Origin: a virus
Reading direction: 5' to 3' (one strand)
Virus record (IMG/VR): IMGVR_UViG_3300046517_000064
Location: 1-26,286 of that record
Length of the DNA stretch: 26,286 nucleotides
The notes beneath the pieces are model-generated. The model worked only from the letters and a program-made list of their open reading frames with translations, had not been told where the DNA came from and did no database searches. Positions 5,954 to 16,676 of the stretch are shown piece by piece (positions within the stretch are counted from its first letter, which is position 1; every line of letters begins with the position of its first letter). Made by a program: the position numbers and the translations under genes.

Positions 5954-8491
5954 TTATTTCTCCATACTCTGGTCAATTTCAAGAGCTTCAATTCGATGCC
6001 GTGTATTAGCTGTGTAACGCCATTCCCAAGCGCGGCGACGATAATTTCCCCAGCGCTGGGCTCTGGGAGTCACATCCGAGATATCAAACCTGCGATACGT
6101 CGCATAAGTTTGATAATCATTATCTGTGTAACGAAGCAGGCCATATTGTGTGCTTGAAGGTAGATCGCATAAAGGAGTTACCTCCATACAAAACTTACGG
6201 TCATTCGTATCAAGATCTTGATTACTTGTACGAATCTTGAAGTTAATCGGCGTTGTGTTATCTTGGAAGATTGTATCGAGCAGCGAATAGATATTACCGC
6301 CACTCACAGCTTGAAATACTTGCTGTCCCCCAAAGTTACAAGACGCGCTCACAGCGAAGTAACTCTCCGTCCAATACGCAGCGACAGGAGATCCAGTAGC
6401 CGGGCTCACAGTCGCAGCAGCTACTGGATATTGAAAAGTATTAGCATCAACGACAGTAACGTTTACTTGCGTCAAATTATAGCCTGATTGAGTAGCTCCC
6501 GATATCGTAATCGGGTCACCGTCTGAGAAACCATGACTCGCACTCGTCGCAGTCGCGAGCCCTCCAGTTTGCGTAAGCGCACTAATTGCCTTGGTCGCAC
6601 TCGCAGCCGTCGTTTGTGTCCAAACATACCACAGTTTCTGTGTCATGTCATAGATTAAGGAGGCTCCAGTCGTACCAAGCCCGAGGATATAGAAGTTATG
6701 CCCCGAGAAGCTTCCAACACAAGAATAAACGATAGCTAAATCGTCTGCGTCAAGGATGCGATCAATATCTGGAGTACTAATCTGGACATAAGATTGCCCC
6801 TCTAACATCGCAATAAATCGGCCCTTTTGGAAGCTAGAACCTTGCCCCTTACGCTGAGCCATAAACAGCAGGGTTGATTCGATCTGCGCGACGCTGTTTG
6901 CATGAGCGCAGCCAATAAGGATCACACCATTCTGCACAGGCTGCAGTGGCGAAGCTGGCGGTGGGACTGCGGCATCCCAAAACATCTGCGTAGTCCACTG
7001 CCCAAAAGCGACGACATAATTATTATACTTACCTAAACACACGCCAGCATCTGGCTCGAACTCCGCAGTAATAAAGTTTGCACTATTCCACGAAGAACAA
7101 TCTTCATTATCACTACCAAAGATAGTTCCGGCTGCGTTCATAACATAGAACGAACCGTCAAGATATACACAACCACGAACTGTTGTAGTTGGGTAGTCAG
7201 TATCAGATACTGCAGTAACTATATTCGTCGCAGGTACTAATTTGTATCCTGAGGTATCAGTACGCACCATAATTTGCGTACCGTCTAAGTTCTTTGCGAA
7301 GTCTACCATTGTGCCTGAAGAGATCGAGCCAATGGACGCCGAGCCCGCGACTGCTGAAGATGGATAGTTATCTACACCAGTTTCAGAATAGACTACAACT
7401 CTACGCTTATGCACAAAGCCCCAAGGACAGACATTAACTGAATTCCAGAAGCTGGAAGTAAAACCGGAATGCGATACTGTCGTCCAAGTAATTGCATCTA
7501 CACTGGAATACACTTGGTCAACACCAGAACCACTAGTTGTGCCTCCGCATAAGTAGATCGTTCCACCTGCGGGAATAAGAACTGGAAACTTTACAGCTGT
7601 AAACGCCGGAGCAGCAGCTATCTGAGTCCAAGTAATTCCATCAGTAGATGACCAGACATCTTTTTGATCTGTACCTGTAATCGTGCCACAGGCAACAAGC
7701 ATCTGGCCCATGTAAACAGCGGCGGCAAACTTTGATCGGGCCGTTGAGCCATAAGCAGGCGTAGCTGTAACGAGCGTCCAAGTGATTCCATCTGTGGAGT
7801 TCCAGACATTATTATTCCCTGCATAACAGCCGCTAAGCAACCACATCTTACTCGCGTAGACGAGTACTCTTGGGGACGGTTGGGCAGAAAAAGCAGCCGC
7901 AGCAGTAATACGAGTCCAGGTTGTACCATCAAATGACTTCCACACTTCTTTCGAGCCAGTGCCCGTGCCCCCAACGCTCGGCCCGATGAAGTAAAGAGCG
8001 CCAGCGTAGCCTACTAATGTCCCCTGATCTCGTTGGCTGGCGTCAATCGAGGAGAATATGTTAGAGGCCCCGAGCGTCCAAGCTGTATCTGTAATTGCTG
8101 CCTTGTAATAAACACTAGTACCCCCAACTCCCCAAATGAATCCGCCAAAGCTAGTAATCCCTGCAATAAAGAATACCCCAACAACGCCAGTTGTAGTCCA
8201 AGCTCCACTAGCATTAGGAATTGCGCTTAAAGATAGCGCACCATTTTGCGCGACGTAGAGAGTTTCCGAGCCATCTGAGCCAATATAGTTTGTAATTCCT
8301 TGCCCCGAGCCCGAGCCTACAGTTGCAGCTAGGTTAAGCCCCCCACGCTTAAATGTACGGATGCTTTCGCCAGTTTTCTCGAGAAACCCGTTCGTGACGA
8401 GGGCATCCTTCGTAAGCGTGCCATCCCGCGATTGCAGGCTCGCGCCTAGCATCAAGCGATTATCTGGTCGTTTATCTGCGCGCGCTGGCAT
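5954..8491 (-). CDS. P22 gp10-like tail nozzle/hub protein with kelch-like blades
   Basis: This 845-residue protein combines three visible parts. Residues about 180-345 hold four kelch-like blades spaced 46-49 residues apart, each marked by VW-S-DG-TWT (three exact DGxTWT, the fourth DAITWT). Residues about 440-545 carry the pattern of the P22 gp10 / phage stabilisation family: YLDGSFYVM, then DCSSWNSANFITAEFEPDAG, then VAFGQWTTQMFWD, followed by a segment leading to SVAQIESTLLFMAQ. Residues about 640-710 (GGLATATSASHGFSDGDPI onward) look like a small beta domain common in tail proteins. It follows the gp4-like adaptor gene, as gp10 follows gp4 in P22-like phages. It most likely forms the tail nozzle that closes the portal channel. 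The start overlaps the upstream stop as TAATG. Confidence 0.75.
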   Translation of the reverse strand: MPARADKRPDNRLMLGASLQSRDGTLTKDALVTNGFLEKTGESIRTFKRGGLNLAATVGSGSGQGITNYIGSDGSETLYVAQNGALSLSAIPNASGAWTTTGVVGVFFIAGITSFGGFIWGVGGTSVYYKAAITDTAWTLGASNIFSSIDASQRDQGTLVGYAGALYFIGPSVGGTGTGSKEVWKSFDGTTWTRITAAAAFSAQPSPRVLVYASKMWLLSGCYAGNNNVWNSTDGITWTLVTATPAYGSTARSKFAAAVYMGQMLVACGTITGTDQKDVWSSTDGITWTQIAAAPAFTAVKFPVLIPAGGTIYLCGGTTSGSGVDQVYSSVDAITWTTVSHSGFTSSFWNSVNVCPWGFVHKRRVVVYSETGVDNYPSSAVAGSASIGSISSGTMVDFAKNLDGTQIMVRTDTSGYKLVPATNIVTAVSDTDYPTTTVRGCVYLDGSFYVMNAAGTIFGSDNEDCSSWNSANFITAEFEPDAGVCLGKYNNYVVAFGQWTTQMFWDAAVPPPASPLQPVQNGVILIGCAHANSVAQIESTLLFMAQRKGQGSSFQKGRFIAMLEGQSYVQISTPDIDRILDADDLAIVYSCVGSFSGHNFYILGLGTTGASLIYDMTQKLWYVWTQTTAASATKAISALTQTGGLATATSASHGFSDGDPITISGATQSGYNLTQVNVTVVDANTFQYPVAAATVSPATGSPVAAYWTESYFAVSASCNFGGQQVFQAVSGGNIYSLLDTIFQDNTTPINFKIRTSNQDLDTNDRKFCMEVTPLCDLPSSTQYGLLRYTDNDYQTYATYRRFDISDVTPRAQRWGNYRRRAWEWRYTANTRHRIEALEIDQSMEK

Positions 8492-9510
8492 TAGGGTCTA
8501 GTAAAGGGTGAACCAATATCCATCGAGTCGCGGCCCGGCTCGAAGCATAAACTTACATCATCAGGGTTGAGGTTGACGCCTTCAGTTACCGCGATAGTCC
8601 AATGATCTTTCATATCCGCAGTCCAGCCAACACCGAATTTAGGTGCGAGCCTACGCGCGAGTTCCCATTCTAATGCTGCAAAGTATTCTTGCGGAAACGC
8701 CACATCATTAGCTGTGGTTGTATAATCCTCAGCGGGATAGATAACCACCAAGCGTAAGAGCTTATAAAGGTTCGCCGCAGCGAAGTTTAACGTAATCGCT
8801 GTATTGAGTCTCTGAGGCTCGATCAAAATCGCGGTACAGTCACCTTGTGCTTGTTTCTGCGTGAGATTCTCAAACTGGCCTACGTCTGTATAAATCTCAA
8901 GTGGAATATCAATCGGTTGTGCGATATTAGACCAATCACGTAAGCTTGCAGCTTCAATCTCGACAAAACGCTGCGCTTTGGCGGTGTAGGTAAAGACTTG
9001 GGCAGTGCTCCCAGCCGCGCCGAGAGTGTTTGAGGGTAACGTTAGAGAAGTTGCACTTCCAACTGTAAGAGTTGTCCAGCCAAGCGTGCCATCTGAAAGA
9101 AGAATTCCGCACTGATCCCCGCTTGTCATTCCAGCAGTCGAAGTTACCGAGATTGTAGTTGCGTTAGCTGCTTTCGATGCCGTAAGTTGCGTAGCGACGA
9201 AAGAAGCAGTTGCGCTGCTACCTACTAATACGGCTGCTCGGTCATCAGTCGAGGCCGGGCCGATAAGGTAACGAGTCTGGTTGAGCACGAACGGCATCGC
9301 TATGCGCTGGCGGGTCCAGATCTTTAGGCCGGGGAACTTATCAGACTTTCCTTGCCATTGCTTGGCTAAAAGATTAAGGGTACGTAAGGCCACAGTTACA
9401 TCGTTCGGGTCAGGAGTCTGACCGTTCGCGATGACTTTAATGTCTTCGAGGGCGGAAGTGATGATGTCAGCTGCGGTGACGGAGTAGGTCCAGACGGCGG
9501 AGGTGGTCAT
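8491..9510 (-). CDS. P22 gp4-like head-to-tail adaptor / tail accessory protein
   Basis: The 339-residue product opens with a helical region typical of gp4-like adaptors: a 'DIITSALEDIKVIANGQTPD' segment followed by ALRTLNLLAKQWQ (to about residue 55). A beta-rich portion (about 95-180, including TTISVTSTAGMTSGDQCGIL) appears inserted. The C-terminal half returns to the adaptor fold, with IDIPLEIYTDVGQFENL and a helical FPQEYFAALEWELARRLAP. In P22, gp4 binds the portal ring and receives gp10. The gene order here, adaptor immediately before the gp10-like nozzle, supports the same role. It starts at ATG 9510 directly after the upstream TAA. Confidence rests on motif pattern and synteny. Confidence 0.7.
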   Translation of the reverse strand: MTTSAVWTYSVTAADIITSALEDIKVIANGQTPDPNDVTVALRTLNLLAKQWQGKSDKFPGLKIWTRQRIAMPFVLNQTRYLIGPASTDDRAAVLVGSSATASFVATQLTASKAANATTISVTSTAGMTSGDQCGILLSDGTLGWTTLTVGSATSLTLPSNTLGAAGSTAQVFTYTAKAQRFVEIEAASLRDWSNIAQPIDIPLEIYTDVGQFENLTQKQAQGDCTAILIEPQRLNTAITLNFAAANLYKLLRLVVIYPAEDYTTTANDVAFPQEYFAALEWELARRLAPKFGVGWTADMKDHWTIAVTEGVNLNPDDVSLCFEPGRDSMDIGSPFTRP

Positions 9511-10353
9511 TTATGGCAGGTTCCATTTAGGCTTAGCTACAGGGAACTCACGAAGTATTTGTGCGTCTTTCGGGTCAAAGAGGACATGAGTTGTCATATT
9601 TACAGGCCCACCCGGACCGCCTCCTCCAACTCCAACGTCTTTGAGACTAACCCCATGAAAACCCTTAGATTGCAGCAATTCACGGGTTAGGGCGTTAAGT
9701 CGCTCCATTTTATCTGTCATTGTGTTTGGAGCGAACATCATAAACAACTCAGGCATACTAATACCTGCCTCTTTCTCAGCTTCCTTAAGAGAGCCAGTCT
9801 TTTTAGACGCGGCCAAAACATCTCTTGGCTGAGCCATATTGCGAAGTGAGAGTAAAGCTTCAATAACTCTAGACTCTGGTGTCCAGCCCTTCCAAGTGCT
9901 GTAATCCTCCGCAAAACCTTTAGCTCCTGGCCGTAAATCTTGAACAAAAAAACTGTTAGGTTTGAATTGTTCAAACTTTGGTTCGCTAGTTCCATGAAAG
10001 GCTTTTACTTGCCGAACAATGCCACGCTCTCCACGATTAGCTGCTAATACGCCCGGTGAGCCCCCAGATGGCCCCATCAACATTAAGGCTTTTGCGATAC
10101 GAAAAGCGTTTTGATCCTCCGTCCCATTCGCCTGTGGCACGAACTCGTCTTGGAACGCCTGTGCAAGGTTCCGTCCGTACTTGCCAGTCGTGATCGGGAA
10201 CTCCGCGAAGTTACGCTCTTGCCACGGCGCGATCTCCCCCTCGTGCACCGGGTCCAGCTCAGGATTCTGCGGCGGCGTGACGTAGGCGGTGCCCTTCGTA
10301 GGAAACATCTGCGAGATCTTCGACGCGAGCCGAGCCGCAAAGTCGTCAGCCAC
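9511..10353 (-). CDS. ADP-ribosyltransferase-like protein in the structural operon
   Basis: I place the start at GTG 10353, because GGAGG lies 5 nt upstream and the start overlaps the preceding stop by 8 nt. A longer frame reaches an upstream GTG at 10386 but lacks a ribosome site. The 280-residue product has at residues 119-125 FHGTSEP, then FEQFKPNSFF, and near the C-terminus GFHGVSL (231-237) and HVLFDP (256-261). This arrangement (HGT, a hydrophobic FF strand, a 'GYDGV'-type motif, a final VxF-P strand) matches ART-like domains found in phage polyvalent proteins. The catalytic glutamate is not obvious, so activity is uncertain. If active it may be injected with DNA to modify host proteins. 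It could instead be an inactive structural relative. Confidence 0.55.
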   Translation of the reverse strand: MADDFAARLASKISQMFPTKGTAYVTPPQNPELDPVHEGEIAPWQERNFAEFPITTGKYGRNLAQAFQDEFVPQANGTEDQNAFRIAKALMLMGPSGGSPGVLAANRGERGIVRQVKAFHGTSEPKFEQFKPNSFFVQDLRPGAKGFAEDYSTWKGWTPESRVIEALLSLRNMAQPRDVLAASKKTGSLKEAEKEAGISMPELFMMFAPNTMTDKMERLNALTRELLQSKGFHGVSLKDVGVGGGGPGGPVNMTTHVLFDPKDAQILREFPVAKPKWNLP

Positions 10354-10783
10354 GGACGCCTCCAACCAGAGGATTATACGGTCCACCCGCAGGGTTGGGG
10401 TTCATTGCGGGTTGGGAGTTTACTCCCGGCATTTGCATTGGTTGCTTCTTCATCATTAGCAACAACTTGATTAACTTCTCAGCCGGGCCTTCCAATGGCA
10501 TCCCAGTATGAGTTGAGATATCAAGGGATTGAGCAAGCCTCGGCGCGAACTGTTGACTCGCTTGTTGAAGTTGTTGAAGCTGCATCTTCTCAAGCCGCTG
10601 CCGCTCGTTCATCAAAGCTTCTTGTTGGGTAGGAGCGGAGCTACGACGCATTTCACTATCAATACGCCCAAAGTTGCGCGGGTCCAAATCTTGCTGGTGA
10701 GCTTCATCTTGGAGGCTAGGTGAGTCAAGCCTCTGCGTTGATAGCTTCGCGTGTTGAAGAAATTGCTCAAACGGGCTAGGCAT
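10346..10783 (-). CDS. Gln/Met-rich hypothetical phage protein
   Basis: The 145-residue product has no family I recognise. The central part (about residues 55-85) is a Gln/Leu/Arg/Glu-rich likely helix or coiled coil, with runs such as QLQQLQQASQQ. A Lys/Leu/Met-rich helix follows at about 103-115, and the C-terminus is Pro/Gly/Asn-rich and probably disordered. The ATG at 10783 overlaps the stop of the SDR gene by 8 nt, and the stop overlaps the ART-like gene. It marks the return from the modification cassette to tail genes, so a minor virion role is as likely as a link to the cassette. Confidence 0.5.
   Translation of the reverse strand: MPSPFEQFLQHAKLSTQRLDSPSLQDEAHQQDLDPRNFGRIDSEMRRSSAPTQQEALMNERQRLEKMQLQQLQQASQQFAPRLAQSLDISTHTGMPLEGPAEKLIKLLLMMKKQPMQMPGVNSQPAMNPNPAGGPYNPLVGGVRG
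10359..10363 (-). promoter_or_regulatory. Ribosome binding site GGAGG for the GTG start at 10353
   Basis: GGAGG on the minus strand, 5 nt from GTG 10353-10351, inside the end of the upstream gene. It favours this start over the GTG at 10386. Confidence 0.65.
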
Positions 10784-11288
10784 TTTTCAACTCTGTAGTA
10801 TATGCAATATTATCCGTGCCCCAAAGAGTTACATCTTCGATGCGCTCACGACCGACTTTGATTAACATTTCACATAAAGCCTCAATATTATCTCCAGTCA
10901 CACGGCCAGCGCGTACAATCCCAATGTTGGGCATTGTACGAAGGATGGTTTCGGCGGCGAGTTTCTGCCGCTGATAGGCGGCTCCGAGCCATTCGATTGA
11001 CATACTGGAGATATAGACGCTAAAGCCTCCTCGTGCTGCCATAATACGCGCAACGTTGACCGGGCCATCAACATTAATACGAAAGGCAAATTCGTTACCC
11101 TCGCATGGCTTTGTACCGTTAATACCTCCACAGATATAAACGATATCGCAAAGAGGAATAGTTTTTACGTGCAGTAAGTCAAGCAGAGGAAGGTTACCAT
11201 CACTGCTGCTCGTGCGAATAGCGTCAGGAAGCTTCTTACTAAGTACTTTTCCAATGCGACCAGTCGCCCCGATAATTAATTCTCTCAT
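10776..11288 (-). CDS. SDR-family NAD(P)-dependent reductase/epimerase (short)
   Basis: I start this gene at ATG 11288, which overlaps the stop of the FkbM gene as ATGA and has GGAG 7 nt upstream. The frame is open further upstream, but those 25 codons lie inside FkbM coding sequence. The 170-residue product has an N-terminal Rossmann signature GATGRIG at residues 7-13, a CGG turn near 53, serines at 94-95 (VYISSMS) and the catalytic pair YQRQK (Y105, K109). These are the hallmarks of short-chain dehydrogenases acting on nucleotide sugars. It is shorter than usual extended SDRs (about 280-330), so the substrate-binding C-terminal lobe is reduced. Its likely role is making or modifying a sugar nucleotide for the adjacent glycosyltransferases. 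Confidence 0.75.
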   Translation of the reverse strand: MRELIIGATGRIGKVLSKKLPDAIRTSSSDGNLPLLDLLHVKTIPLCDIVYICGGINGTKPCEGNEFAFRINVDGPVNVARIMAARGGFSVYISSMSIEWLGAAYQRQKLAAETILRTMPNIGIVRAGRVTGDNIEALCEMLIKVGRERIEDVTLWGTDNIAYTTELKNA

Positions 11289-11962
11289 GGCTTGGCTCCG
11301 ATAAACAGGGCCCCGTGGGAGTAATGGGTTGGCATGTCGGTTAAACACTCTACCGAGCCCCATTTACTACGCTGAGCCCACATTTCTCGCTTCCCTAGAA
11401 AATGCTCGAAGATTCGTGCTGCATTCAACGCTGTACCAACCTCGACTAGAAATTCGCATTTAATCTTTGACGTCACTGTAAGTAATATATCAGCTTCACT
11501 ACCTTCACAATCTATCTTAGCAAAGTCGGCCCATGAGAAGATTGCCCGACAATCAATCGTACGCACGATAATACTCTCACGCGGGCCATAACTTGTACGT
11601 GCACCAGTTAAATGGCTTGCGGTCTGGTTATCAAGTACTCTAATAAACTCTGCATAGCCATCCTTAGTCGAGACAGCCATTTCGATAGGCGCAATCGAGC
11701 CAAAAAGATCGTGGGCAGAAATATTATTTTCGAGACGTGCAAAGTGTACAGGATCTGGCTCATATGCTACAACGTCCCAACCTTGCTTAGCCATTAGCAG
11801 AGCATGTACACCAACATTGGCTCCGATATCGAGGACCTTTTTGTAACGGTTCTTATGTGTTTCGTAAAAGTCAAATATGTCTTGTTCCCGATCTTCAAAG
11901 AGGTCTAGGGTGTTTACTTTACCCATCTGGACTGATGGAATCGACAGCCCGCGCATGTTCAC
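11285..11962 (-). CDS. FkbM family SAM-dependent methyltransferase
   Basis: The 225-residue product carries SAM motif I VLDIGANVGVH at about 43-53, an acidic motif II residue in VVAYEPD (about 64-70) and the family signature FAKIDCEGSEADIL at about 147-160. FkbM-type enzymes O-methylate hydroxyls on sugars or polyketides, so methylation of a sugar residue is the likely chemistry here. It starts at GTG 11962, overlapping the stop of the fusion gene as GTGA and preceded by AAAGGTGG. An ATG two codons later is an alternative. It sits between a methyltransferase-GT9 fusion and an SDR, all four coupled, which places it in the glycan modification cassette. No membrane or secretion signal is present. 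Confidence 0.85.
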   Translation of the reverse strand: MNMRGLSIPSVQMGKVNTLDLFEDREQDIFDFYETHKNRYKKVLDIGANVGVHALLMAKQGWDVVAYEPDPVHFARLENNISAHDLFGSIAPIEMAVSTKDGYAEFIRVLDNQTASHLTGARTSYGPRESIIVRTIDCRAIFSWADFAKIDCEGSEADILLTVTSKIKCEFLVEVGTALNAARIFEHFLGKREMWAQRSKWGSVECLTDMPTHYSHGALFIGAKP

Positions 11963-13581
11963 TTGGATACCACCTTTAAAGGAATGTGTGGTTTAGCCTT
12001 GAGCCCGAGCGCCCGTTCGATAGCTAACTGGACCGCCTGTGGAGGAATGTCATACTGACAATCGGCTGTCCCTGGAATCTCTTTCGATTCGTGGCAGAAC
12101 TCCCAAGTATAATGCAAGCGATGGCATGGGTAGCAAGGAGTCTTAGTGCTAAAAAGAGCAAAAGTGTTAACCCAATCCCGAGTGAGGTTATTATGGCTGG
12201 AGTGGGAAAGGAACACAATCTTAGGCATCTTCTCGACGCATACAGCGCTTAGTACACCAGTCTCGGGCCCGATGACGAGATCGCTGATCTGCGCGAGTGC
12301 GAGGGTATCTCGGATACTTACCTTACCCGAAGCCTTCACAACGCAAGGGACCTTATCCCAATCAAGATAAGCTCCGGGGACGCCTGTACCAGGTTTAGTG
12401 TTCTCAATTAATTGACACTTCTCGTCACCTACAGTCACGACTTTGCAGCCCGGAATCGTAAGCATTAACCATGCAAGGACTTGGTCAATGTGGGGATAAA
12501 TCTTATGTACGGATGAGCCAGCAAGTGCCCACAAAATTACCGGATCACCCTTGAGCTTCGCTTTGAAGTCAACGGCCCGGCCACGCTCTTCGAGCGTCGG
12601 GTGGAACTTCACCAATGGATGCGTATAAGGTACCTCAGCTACATCGTGCGCAAACTCAATATAATTAACGTCGAGATACTTCTTACGCACACTATAAGGC
12701 CGACCATGCCAGACATCGTTATTTGGCACCGGGAGCCATGCACCCTCAACAGTCTCGCTCAGGTTAACCCACTTATCGTATTTCTTCTCTTCATGGGCCC
12801 AAAACTTACCTAGGAAGTGATTAGGGACTTGATCAGTATCTTGAAGATATACTGAGTCGATATTAGGGTCGCTCTTAAGTACTTCATAAGCACGCTCGGT
12901 ACTGTAAAGAGTGATACGATAGCCCTCAGCCTTGAGTGCCGCAAGCACACTCGAAGTCTGTAACGCATCGCCCCAAGCACCATAACGCACGACTGCGCAG
13001 GTCTTGCCTCCGGGTGTTGGGTTGAGGTAGCTGTTCTTGCAGCCCGAGCCTTGCTTTAGCTTTGTGTAAACTTGGAAAAATGAATATTCATCATCTTCAG
13101 TTCGGGGCTCGTTACGAATAAGGTCCCATGAGCCAACATCACGCATGGCTGAGGTAATATCCCCCGGAAGAAAATCATGCTTGTGGTCTGGGTTTCCGCC
13201 AGGTTTGCCAAGGTTAGGATAAAAGTCCTTGTGAGGCAGGTAAAGGACTAGTCTACCTCCAACCTTCAGCACGCGCCAGCACTCGCGTAGAACTTTCTTA
13301 TAATCTACGATATGTTCGAGTAAGTGAGAACTGAATACGAAATCGAGGCTTTCACTAGCGAACATATCCATGTTACTAGCCTCTGCTACAACATCAGGCC
13401 GAGCTTGGTTCTGCTTTGTGAATAAGTCAGTATCTTTCTTATTGTCCACGCCGATGAAGTGAGGGAACGCACGACCGGGGCCCGAGCCAAGATCAATACC
13501 TCTCCCCCGCGTATACGGCACTAACTCCCATACAATCTTCGTCCACTCAGGCGTGTATGGTTGGCCAGCTTTCCAAGTCAT
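11959..13581 (-). CDS. Fusion of class I methyltransferase and GT9 heptosyltransferase-like glycosyltransferase
   Basis: The 540-residue protein has two domains. Residues 1-175 are a SAM methyltransferase: motif I IDLGSGPG at 29-36, an acidic residue in VDNKKD, SLDFVFSSHLLEH at about 78-90, and LKVGGRLVLYLPHKDF at about 105-120. From about residue 190 a GT9-type glycosyltransferase begins with VVRYGAWGDALQTS, resembling the start of ADP-heptose:LPS heptosyltransferases. Its donor-site region carries SDLVIGPETGVLSAV at 433-447, and a Cys-rich PCYPCHRLHY follows near 482. The ATG at 13581 overlaps the GT2 stop as ATGA and has AGGA 7 nt upstream. The fusion would let one protein add and methylate a sugar. 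Donor and acceptor are unknown. Confidence 0.8.
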   Translation of the reverse strand: MTWKAGQPYTPEWTKIVWELVPYTRGRGIDLGSGPGRAFPHFIGVDNKKDTDLFTKQNQARPDVVAEASNMDMFASESLDFVFSSHLLEHIVDYKKVLRECWRVLKVGGRLVLYLPHKDFYPNLGKPGGNPDHKHDFLPGDITSAMRDVGSWDLIRNEPRTEDDEYSFFQVYTKLKQGSGCKNSYLNPTPGGKTCAVVRYGAWGDALQTSSVLAALKAEGYRITLYSTERAYEVLKSDPNIDSVYLQDTDQVPNHFLGKFWAHEEKKYDKWVNLSETVEGAWLPVPNNDVWHGRPYSVRKKYLDVNYIEFAHDVAEVPYTHPLVKFHPTLEERGRAVDFKAKLKGDPVILWALAGSSVHKIYPHIDQVLAWLMLTIPGCKVVTVGDEKCQLIENTKPGTGVPGAYLDWDKVPCVVKASGKVSIRDTLALAQISDLVIGPETGVLSAVCVEKMPKIVFLSHSSHNNLTRDWVNTFALFSTKTPCYPCHRLHYTWEFCHESKEIPGTADCQYDIPPQAVQLAIERALGLKAKPHIPLKVVSK

Positions 13582-14465
13582 GCGGCTATCCTATAAGGTT
13601 CAAGTTTTTTGTAGGTCATTTGCTTCCGCAGCTCAAACATAGCAATTAGCTTATACATCATTTCTTCATACAGGATTTGTAAATCTTCTTGGCTCCCAAG
13701 ACCTTTTTTAGAGAACCAAGTCATTAATTCTTGCTGGGCGTAAGCAAGTTGATATTGAGCAGCTTCGACTACAGGGAGCTTGTCGTCTCCAGCTAGGTTT
13801 CGGATGACTCCGTTAAGGCCAGTATTACCAGAATCAGCGGTTTGAGTGTAAGTGTAGACAGGAGTCTTGCTGAAGTAGATACCTCCGAGGACGACGGCAA
13901 TTGGGGGTAGCCAAACGTCCGAGCCGATTAACTCAGGGATTGGCGTAGCATTATGCCAAAAGTCTGTACGCCAATCCGAGCAGCCGGAGGAGCCTGCGCG
14001 CTCGACCACGACTTGCTTCATCGTGAGCCAGCCTTCCGTGTCGTGCGTAGTCGAGCCTACGATGGAGCCATTCTCCTCGTACTGCATCTTTCCTGTTACC
14101 ATCGCAGCGCCCGTGCGCTCGAACACTTCCATCTGCGTCTCGACTCGATTTGGCATTGACCAGTCGTCGGCAGATTGAGGAAAAGCTACCTCACCCTCAA
14201 CCCGATCCATTAGAAACTTCATATGGCGATTACAACCAATAAAGCCCCGATACTCTGTATCCGGGCAGTCAAAGACGCGCAACTTATGCGGTCCTTTGTA
14301 TTCAGAGGCGATCTTATGAATAATCGCCCGAGTGCCATCGGCAGAACCCTGATCGCCCACGAGTATCTCGAGGTTGCCATACGTCTGCGCGAGACAACTA
14401 CGCAAGGCGCGAGCAACATGCTTGACCTTATCGCGAGCGAACAGGATTATGCTGGCTTTCTTCAC
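13578..14465 (-). CDS. Family 2 (GT-A) glycosyltransferase
   Basis: I start at GTG 14465, which forms a GTGA overlap with the upstream stop and has AGGA 5 nt before it. A GTG at 14492 is a weaker alternative nested 31 nt into the previous gene. The 295-residue product begins with a beta strand (ASIILFARDK), then a helix ending in SCLAQTYGNLEILVGDQGSA across two pieces, the classic GT2 nucleotide-binding start. The metal-binding DxD-like motif is SADDW near residue 98. The C-terminal 80 residues are helical. There is no membrane segment, so it acts in the cytoplasm. It is the first gene of the coupled modification cassette. Donor sugar and acceptor cannot be determined. Confidence 0.85.
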   Translation of the reverse strand: MKKASIILFARDKVKHVARALRSCLAQTYGNLEILVGDQGSADGTRAIIHKIASEYKGPHKLRVFDCPDTEYRGFIGCNRHMKFLMDRVEGEVAFPQSADDWSMPNRVETQMEVFERTGAAMVTGKMQYEENGSIVGSTTHDTEGWLTMKQVVVERAGSSGCSDWRTDFWHNATPIPELIGSDVWLPPIAVVLGGIYFSKTPVYTYTQTADSGNTGLNGVIRNLAGDDKLPVVEAAQYQLAYAQQELMTWFSKKGLGSQEDLQILYEEMMYKLIAMFELRKQMTYKKLEPYRIAA

Positions 14466-14800
14466 ACTTTTCCTAACTTCGTGTAGCCGCACTCGACAGG
14501 GTTGCTGCTCTCTGACCCTCGTGGTGCCCGGTAGGTACTCTGAGTCGAGTTCCGACCTGCGGGTTTGGCTTCAGTGCTAATGACGCGCTTTGCACCGTCA
14601 GCTTGTCCGTTAGTCCCTTCGTTAATCTTCGGAGCCATCGGAACACTCTTACCGCGAGGCTTCGCCTCCATCTGATTTGGGGGCTCGGCATTCACGGGCG
14701 ACTTCTTCAGTGGGACATTCTTCACGCCGGACCCGCGCTCGAACTGTTTATTATCCGCGTGCTCGGTCGTCTTACCAGTGCTTGGCTTAGTTCCCGCCAT
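14462..14800 (-). CDS. Basic, disordered hypothetical phage protein
   Basis: The 112-residue protein is rich in Lys, Ser, Asn, Pro, Gly and Thr, with almost no hydrophobic core, so it is probably unstructured. GGAGG lies 8 nt before the ATG at 14800, inside the end of the upstream gene (14-nt overlap). There are no Cys pairs apart from a single Cys near the end, and no recognised domain. It is the last small head-region gene before the glycosyltransferase cassette. It may be a minor head protein; nothing in the sequence tests that. Confidence 0.55.
   Translation of the reverse strand: MAGTKPSTGKTTEHADNKQFERGSGVKNVPLKKSPVNAEPPNQMEAKPRGKSVPMAPKINEGTNGQADGAKRVISTEAKPAGRNSTQSTYRAPRGSESSNPVECGYTKLGKV
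14471..14474 (-). promoter_or_regulatory. Ribosome binding site AGGA for the GTG start at 14465
   Basis: AGGA on the minus strand, 5 nt from GTG 14465-14463. It supports the shorter start that overlaps the previous stop by 4 nt. Confidence 0.5.
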
Positions 14801-15302: not shown

Positions 15303-15689
15303 TTACGGAGTTACGCTGGCACCCGGAAGGATAACCAGCTCGAAACCTACGCCCGAGACTTCTGTGGCATCCGCGCCCTTGAGGACCCAAGCCGCGTCGC
15401 CAGCCGACAACGTCTGAGTCGTCGTGACGTTCGTGCCCGTGCCTGCAAAAGCCGTGTGGGTGCACAGCACAGTCGTGGAAGTAGACGATCCCGAGTTGAT
15501 AAGGAGCGTCTTAGCATCCGCGACCGTGCCTGCGGTCACACACTTGATGTTCACAGATTTCAGCAGCGTGGTGGTGATAGCGACGAATCGCTGCGTTACA
15601 CCAGCCGCGCCTGAGAGCGTTCCCAATGGGGCCTGAACAACTGCCAGATAGATGGCATTGTCATAGGCCGCGTTCTTAGTAAGCGCCAT
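15303..15689 (-). CDS. Putative head decoration protein
   Basis: The 128-residue product is encoded directly after the major capsid gene. It is rich in Ala, Thr, Val, Gly and Leu with few charges, pointing to a beta-sandwich. AAGGAGG lies 6 nt before the ATG at 15689 and overlaps the capsid stop, one of the strongest ribosome sites in the operon, which fits a protein needed in many copies. There is no signal peptide or membrane helix. A small abundant beta protein next to the capsid gene is most often a decoration or cement protein. That role is inferred from position, composition and ribosome site, since I recognise no specific family. Confidence 0.55.
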   Translation of the reverse strand: MALTKNAAYDNAIYLAVVQAPLGTLSGAAGVTQRFVAITTTLLKSVNIKCVTAGTVADAKTLLINSGSSTSTTVLCTHTAFAGTGTNVTTTQTLSAGDAAWVLKGADATEVSGVGFELVILPGASVTP

Positions 15690-15695
15690 GATATG

Positions 15696-15702
15696 CCTCC
15701 TT
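15696..15702 (-). promoter_or_regulatory. Strong ribosome binding site AAGGAGG of the decoration candidate
   Basis: AAGGAGG on the minus strand, 6 nt from the ATG at 15689, and overlapping the TAA of the capsid gene. It implies high expression. Confidence 0.7.
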
Positions 15703-16676
15703 TAAGCCGCCGAATCCCAAACAACAATCCGGGACTCAGTAGCAATCGTTTGAACAAGGCCGAACCCACCGAGATAGTACCATGCGACACCCTTCGACCG
15801 ACCGTAATCAGTCGGAATCTTGGCACGCATCTCCTCGGGGACCGCGACACCTTCTGCGACAGTATCCTCTCCCATGAAGAAGATCCAATCGCTCAGTGCG
15901 TTGGTCCACGCGACACCAGTAAGACCACCATCCGAAGAAATTCCCTTCGGAATGTTCGTCTGCTCGACGAAGCGGGTATTCTCGTACCGCCCGATTTCTC
16001 CGTTGAAGATCAGTTGGATTCCAGGCACCGTGTATTGGTGGATGGTTTCCAGCGTGTTCTTCAGTGACCGGAGCGTGGATGGCCAAGCAATACCAATATA
16101 ATCATCGTTGGTGTACGCAGGGATATTACGCTCCTTCATCAAGTCCACAAGGGTCTTGAGGTGAGGAGTTCCGAACGCGATGTTATTAGTCGTGGTAGCC
16201 GTGCCCGTGGTCGTCAGGGTCAGTGAAGAGCTGTTAGTGCCACTGACAGGGACAACCCGGAGCTTGGCATTATTAAACTGTACCCACGAGGCCCGGTCAA
16301 ACGTCTTGACCGCATCGTTTCGGAGGGCCTGCATCACGGGCTTGCGCACCTCGAATTTCGAGAGGGCTTCAAGCTTGCCACTATAAGGCACGCTATTACC
16401 GTACTCGTTGATGGTGAGCGTTGCTTGCGTGATAGTGAATTGCGTCTCGGGCATCGTGTTCGTTTCGACCAGCGTACCGCCACCAGTCGCTACGTTCGAC
16501 ACAACGTCCCAAGTGAAGGTTTGGCCCTTACCCTTCCCTTGTTGGCTTGCATCTTTCACATCTGCGAACTGCCGGAACCGAGACATCGGTTGTAGTGCTT
16601 CCCGAAGCTCATCTGACAGGTTCTGCGAATAGAAGAAGCCTCCGAGGCTATTGACAGCCCAAAGCTGTCCAGCCAT
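15702..16676 (-). CDS. Major capsid protein, N4-gp56-like family
   Basis: The 324-residue product has the features of N4-gp56-type capsid proteins (HK97 fold). The N-terminal helix includes YSQNLSDELREALQPMSRF. A strand region GQTFTWDVVSNVATGGGTLVE (in pieces: QTFTWDVVSN, ATGGGTLVE) is followed by TITQATLTINEYGNSVPYSG. A segment AWPSTLRSLKNT precedes GEIGRYENTRFVEQTNIPKG, which is characteristic. The C-terminus ends with IPTDYGRSKGVAWYYLGGFG and a final strand. It starts at ATG 16676, three bases after the scaffold stop. It would form the icosahedral shell. The placement after scaffold and before decoration candidate is canonical. Confidence 0.85.
   Translation of the reverse strand: MAGQLWAVNSLGGFFYSQNLSDELREALQPMSRFRQFADVKDASQQGKGKGQTFTWDVVSNVATGGGTLVETNTMPETQFTITQATLTINEYGNSVPYSGKLEALSKFEVRKPVMQALRNDAVKTFDRASWVQFNNAKLRVVPVSGTNSSSLTLTTTGTATTTNNIAFGTPHLKTLVDLMKERNIPAYTNDDYIGIAWPSTLRSLKNTLETIHQYTVPGIQLIFNGEIGRYENTRFVEQTNIPKGISSDGGLTGVAWTNALSDWIFFMGEDTVAEGVAVPEEMRAKIPTDYGRSKGVAWYYLGGFGLVQTIATESRIVVWDSAA

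Follow-up and report, generated by a model that had tools for sequence, protein, structure and literature searches.

A fused methyltransferase-glycosyltransferase gene (MT-GT9) almost always stands between the capsid and head-tail adaptor genes in a large phage group of which most members are uncultured. By comparison of their loci it is a conserved core; the four glycan-related genes among which it lies in our starting record are not one conserved cassette. We think it probable that this cassette modifies the phage's own particle, with accessory enzymes around the MT-GT9 core varying the glycan. The starting record is a 26.3-kb virus sequence (IMGVR_UViG_3300046517_000064, positions 1 to 26,286), called the window below.

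Organization of the late operon

The structural genes of the window lie on the minus strand in the order TerL, portal, scaffold (so labelled from its position), capsid, decoration-like, small genes, cassette, head-tail adaptor, Hc3 and distal genes (Table 1). The preliminary description of this DNA had placed four genes between head and tail genes. This holds: all four ORFs (GT2, MT-GT9, FkbM and SDR) are present on the minus strand, and the flanking genes match PHROGs (capsid phrog_1357, adaptor phrog_637, Hc3 phrog_578, TerL phrog_2). The three internal 4-nt overlaps that had been described were likewise found in the DNA, as ATGA between GT2 and the fusion, GTGA between the fusion and FkbM, and ATGA between FkbM and SDR. 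The coupling reaches past the cassette on both sides, with a GTGA overlap between the 112-aa gene and GT2 and 8 nt between SDR and the 145-aa gene. Because comparable short overlaps are present at other spots of this dense operon, the overlaps alone indicate late co-expression and not a single pathway. The cassette proteins carry no membrane segments, as had been noted (maximum 19-residue hydropathy ≤1.5). Promoter-like sites in the cassette region were not above shuffled sequence, and no RNA families were found in the window.

A 291-aa protein of the window (9511-10386) without a family match contains a stretch, FHGTSEPKFEQFKP, that recalls ADP-ribosyltransferase-like phage proteins. In the Hc3-like protein (5954-8491) the matched region is preceded by a long, beta-propeller-like N-terminal stretch in which a 'DGxTW' motif recurs.

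Table 1. Features of the cassette and its surroundings, in window coordinates
Feature	Coordinates	Strand	Basis and remarks
Head-tail adaptor	8491..9510	-	phrog_12985, phrog_637; closes the slot in most relatives
145-aa protein	10346..10783	-	After SDR; counterpart directly after the fusion in L196
SDR-like/RmlD-like protein, 170 aa	10776..11288	-	Weak assignment; inserted with FkbM; GxxGxxG and YxxxK visible
FkbM-family methyltransferase, 225 aa	11285..11962	-	TIGR01444, PF05050; accessory insertion after the fusion
MT-GT9 fusion, 540 aa	11959..13581	-	N-terminal class I methyltransferase, C-terminal GT9; PF08241, PF01075 in homologues, AlphaFold2, Foldseek
GT9 domain, ~residues 193-525	12007..13005	-	D205 and K360 align with WaaF; E440-T-G; Cys cluster 483/486/496/508
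Methyltransferase domain, ~residues 1-180	13042..13581	-	SAM motif D30xGxG; invariant NPDHKHDF 130-137
GT2 glycosyltransferase, 295 aa	13578..14465	-	PF00535; accessory insertion before the fusion; missing at the matching place in L196
112-aa protein	14462..14800	-	Directly before GT2; in L196 and L197 the fusion is immediately preceded by a counterpart of its C-terminal part
Decoration-like protein, 128 aa, 24% Ser/Thr	15303..15689	-	Beta-sandwich model (pLDDT 85), composition; candidate glycan acceptor
Major capsid protein	15702..16676	-	phrog_1357, PF05065; candidate glycan acceptor

Domains and fold of the MT-GT9 fusion

The methyltransferase half of the fusion matches PF08241 (E 3e-13), as do all 64 family members analysed, which places it among the class I SAM methyltransferases. 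Across the alignment of these 64 proteins D30, G32 and G34 of the SAM motif are invariant, and so are NPDHKHDF, D205, K360, E440-T-G and the four cysteines. The GT9 half of the window's own protein lies under Pfam detection (PF01075) and has no PHROG match. Searched alone against PDB sequences with phmmer, it gave no matches, and profiles and folds were therefore used instead. PF01075 was found in 28 of the 64 homologues at E 0.01 or better (best 7e-8), identifying the GT9 domain at the level of the family. An AlphaFold2 model built on the 64 homologues reached a pLDDT of 91.8, and the best PDB folds for its GT9 half in Foldseek were the GT9 protein 3tov, WaaF, WaaC and TibC (E 1e-12 to 1e-8). 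The GT9 domain aligns over its full length to residues 4-343 of E. coli K-12 WaaF, with D205 and K360 in register. Together, the conserved motifs, the confident model and the fold matches support a predicted active GT9. The worry that catalytic residues might be inactive does not hold for the fusion, whose catalytic motifs are intact, and the function first proposed, glycan attachment with methylation, is well supported.

The WaaF and WaaC LPS heptosyltransferases share the GT9 fold with the fusion but are single-domain enzymes that act on the LPS core and have no methyltransferase. The autotransporter heptosyltransferases TibC and AAH resemble it in their GT9-type GT-B fold (Foldseek E 2e-8) and in a four-Cys cluster in the C-lobe, which in TibC is required for protein heptosylation (PMC4358343); they differ in having no fused methyltransferase, in their autotransporter substrate and in sequence, at ~14% identity. 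The cluster is invariant in the fusion family, yet host WaaF proteins bear a similar one. It is therefore not a marker of protein-glycosylating GT9 enzymes, and kinship with TibC through this Cys finger was dropped as a diagnostic.

The genome scan also detected bacterial proteins with the MT domain only. A GT9 gene lies three or fewer genes away in 23 of 32 such loci; GT9 accounts for 40 of 183 near genes versus 11 of 261 far genes (Fisher P 1e-8), and ten of the GT9 neighbours were verified by Pfam. Stand-alone MT relatives adjoin GT9 genes in glycan loci of L101, L107, L110, L112, L115, L116, L121 and others, a gene pair that is apparently undescribed so far. Genes that adjoin each other in bacteria and form a fusion in phages are classically taken as functionally linked, so MT and GT9 are expected to share a pathway. 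The simplest reading is that the MT would methylate the sugar transferred by the GT9.

The fusion is nearly fixed in the capsid-adaptor slot

A scan of viral contigs yielded 205 stretches coding for relatives of the fusion. Locus counts are approximate, since gene calls are simple ORF tilings and IMG/VR holds near-duplicates: in a first set of 98 loci (the window, viral contigs and genome contigs) the capsid gene lies upstream of the fusion in 80, and the adaptor is the next called gene after it in 66 of the 81 loci with a downstream adaptor. A second sample, sharing a few contigs with the first, was drawn by capsid protein to avoid ascertainment through the fusion. The fusion is present in 38 of its 39 loci that reach adaptor or tail genes, or 30 of 31 distinct capsid sequences. 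The sole exception, L207, has neither MT-GT9 nor a recognisable decoration-like protein and carries GIY-YIG/HNH-like (homing-endonuclease-like) ORFs in the slot. Among cultivated bacteria, prophages with the fusion are present in Paraburkholderia rhynchosiae WSM 3937 (L085), Paraburkholderia sp. C35 (L086) and Aromatoleum anaerobium LuFRes1 (L088).

Fusion distances correlate with those of portal, adaptor and capsid (Mantel r 0.78, 0.79 and 0.65) and also with those of scaffold, as strongly as portal, adaptor and scaffold correlate with capsid. Judged by these distances, the history of the fusion runs parallel to that of portal, capsid and adaptor. Such linkage of glycosyltransferase genes to structural genes is what would be expected of a virion-glycosylation system. 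In one phage sub-lineage (L200, L203, L204, L206, L215 and L240) the slot encodes MT and GT9 separately, and small ORFs lie between the two genes. An intron as the reason for the split is unsupported, there being no Rfam match in the three loci examined.

Homologues aligning at 40-46% identity to the fusion were found on five bacterial contigs (L092, L093, L094, L096 and L097) that look like lambda-like prophages. Their gene order is GpA terminase, lambda-family portal, protease-capsid protein, MT-GT9, tail terminator, tail tube and tape-measure; the terminase and portal were confirmed on L093, and L097 is fragmentary. None of these neighbours is related to those in the window, yet MT-GT9 again follows the capsid gene, here directly. 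No other observation points so strongly to a capsid or virion protein as the substrate.

The family is nearly missing from cultured-phage records. PTXU04 (Xuquatrovirus), Escherichia phage Bas95 and Vibrio phage 1.232.O have capsid proteins 47-51% identical to the window's and the same gene order (portal, scaffold, capsid, small genes, adaptor, Hc3), and their slot has no MT-GT9 and no GT2 match. Particles can therefore form without the fusion. The small pre-adaptor protein at L195, L284, L285 and L286 (gp14 in PTXU04, gp13 in Vibrio 1.232.O) has its homologue in many environmental loci in the gene preceding the fusion, and so marks exactly where the fusion was gained or lost. Peptide fingerprinting places PTXU04 gp12, the positional counterpart of the window's decoration-like protein, in the virion (PMC6563267); the two families resemble each other weakly in sequence. 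Foldseek with the decoration-like model gave weak beta-sandwich matches only. We dropped this protein as an exclusive partner of the fusion, as a weakly similar protein stands at the same place in phages without it.

Accessory genes flank the fusion as separate insertions

Of the four identities in the preliminary description, GT2, MT-GT9 and FkbM stand by profiles and fold, and SDR stays weak. GT2 matches PF00535 at E 4e-14 and 53.4 bits (curated cut-off 23.3), and FkbM matches TIGR01444 at 72.8 bits (cut-off 37.7). The SDR protein, which probably starts at ATG 11288 (170 aa) rather than as a longer 195-aa ORF from 11363, matches only RmlD models, at 21.9 bits for PF04321 (cut-off 27) and 21.2 bits for TIGR01214 (cut-off 224), below the RmlD and extended SDR cut-offs. 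The suggested step of making a sugar depends on this short protein, which scores under all the curated cut-offs.

Locus L196 has a capsid 84% identical to the window's. Relative to it, the window contains two clean insertions. One, of ~880 nt and holding GT2, separates the 112-aa gene from the fusion, where L196 has 11 nt; the other, FkbM plus SDR, lies after the fusion and before the 145-aa gene. In this comparison GT2 and FkbM-SDR appear as two separate insertions that flank the fusion and are missing from the closest relatives. GC3 is 0.42 in FkbM and SDR, below the fusion (0.505) and the capsid gene (0.625). A single four-gene pathway, as first envisaged, is not upheld, since only MT-GT9 is conserved, and no other sampled locus has the four-gene order. 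GT2 lies beside the fusion in L009, L015, L062, L082, L222 and L234 and FkbM in L074, an adjacency that is descriptive because the accessory profile seeds were chosen from the slot; a GT2 profile run over all called genes of the sampled loci found GT2 in the slot region only. The window's GT2 and SDR had no close relatives in the viral-contig scans, and phage records gave only partial matches for GT2, distant ones for FkbM and none for SDR. Upstream of the fusion, L036 (2427-6745) carries a larger glycan set of a GT4-like protein, GT2, MT and a 565-aa GT1-sulfotransferase protein, the last hinting at sulfated glycans.

Proposed function and alternatives

The sugar, the protein target, the order of reactions and the benefit to the phage are the parts of the particle-modification reading that we infer. 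During late expression the GT9 half would transfer a sugar, possibly heptose-type, to the capsid or decoration protein, and the methyltransferase half would add a methyl group to this sugar. GT9 membership points to ADP-heptose, which Gram-negative hosts make for LPS, and the donor would most likely be this host ADP-heptose, so that the phage would not have to encode a sugar pathway. GT2, FkbM and the SDR-like protein may lengthen, methylate or alter the glycan, and accessory enzymes differ between phages. Capsid glycosylation has been shown in few phages. Against a virion target stand the LPS role for which GT9 enzymes are best known and the cultured relatives that build particles without the fusion. 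Of the targets first listed (capsid or fibre, host surface, DNA), the virion is nonetheless favoured, since two unrelated types of phage each keep the fusion at a conserved position behind the capsid gene.

The main rival is host-surface modification, to which we give a real but clearly smaller chance. The enzymes would alter a host surface glycan, such as LPS core heptose, late in infection, blocking superinfection or stopping progeny from sticking to debris, and would sit in the late operon for timing only. The GT9 folds are indeed nearest to the LPS heptosyltransferases WaaF and WaaC, comparable LPS enzymes are either soluble or peripheral, and the bacterial MT/GT9 pairs sit in glycan gene neighbourhoods. 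However, this would leave unexplained the capsid-adaptor fixation in 38 of 39 loci and the post-capsid place in unrelated siphophage-type prophages; exclusion genes, moreover, tend to be movable, and lysogens often express them. It is unlikely that the cassette instead modifies a tail fibre, spike or ejected proteins and acts on host range or injection. These are products of the same late operon, and in L050, L056 and L014 the slot contains inserted genes for large fibre-like proteins, but distal tail genes vary between fusion-bearing architectures whereas the capsid neighbour is constant. Modification of phage DNA is very improbable: DNA-modifying phage glycosyltransferases are known (as cited in PMC12619734), but GT9 relatives use lipid-linked or protein acceptors, the annotated nearby genes include no modified-base synthesis gene, and the fusion gene lies in the head module and not among replication genes. 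We give equally little credence to a fusion that has lost its enzymatic role and now serves head-tail assembly. Such a role would fit a gene that is near-universal and always in the head-tail region, but the motifs of both domains are invariant and six loci have MT and GT9 as separate genes, as expected of enzymes.

Modification of the virion by phage enzymes, the reading we prefer, is already known from mycobacteriophages. The phage glycosyltransferases of Che8 and Rita glycosylate capsid and tail-tube subunits (Freeman et al. 2023, as described in PMC12619734 and PMC11256854), and the capsid glycans serve as a shield (PMC12619734, PMC11256854). The likeness to the window lies in phage-encoded glycosyltransferases for the virion; hosts and enzymes differ, and in a close F1 relative the glycosyltransferase genes lie near the 3' end of the genome and not in a capsid-adaptor slot (PMC11256854). 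For the MT-GT9 fusion family we found no description in our literature search, with most subscription journals beyond its reach.

Our analysis gives a likely function to a family that is rare in cultured-phage records and whose GT9 half has no PHROG. More tentatively, it is conceivable that one fused enzyme heptosylates and methylates the capsid almost throughout a large lineage of proteobacterial phages, most of them uncultured, and that accessory glycosyl-, methyl- and sulfotransferases are swapped beside it, making the slot a modular capsid-glycan locus. If so, sugar-coated phage capsids would be common in Gram-negative hosts, given a near-universal enzyme in a widespread environmental lineage, and glycan variation could be read at the site beside the core gene.
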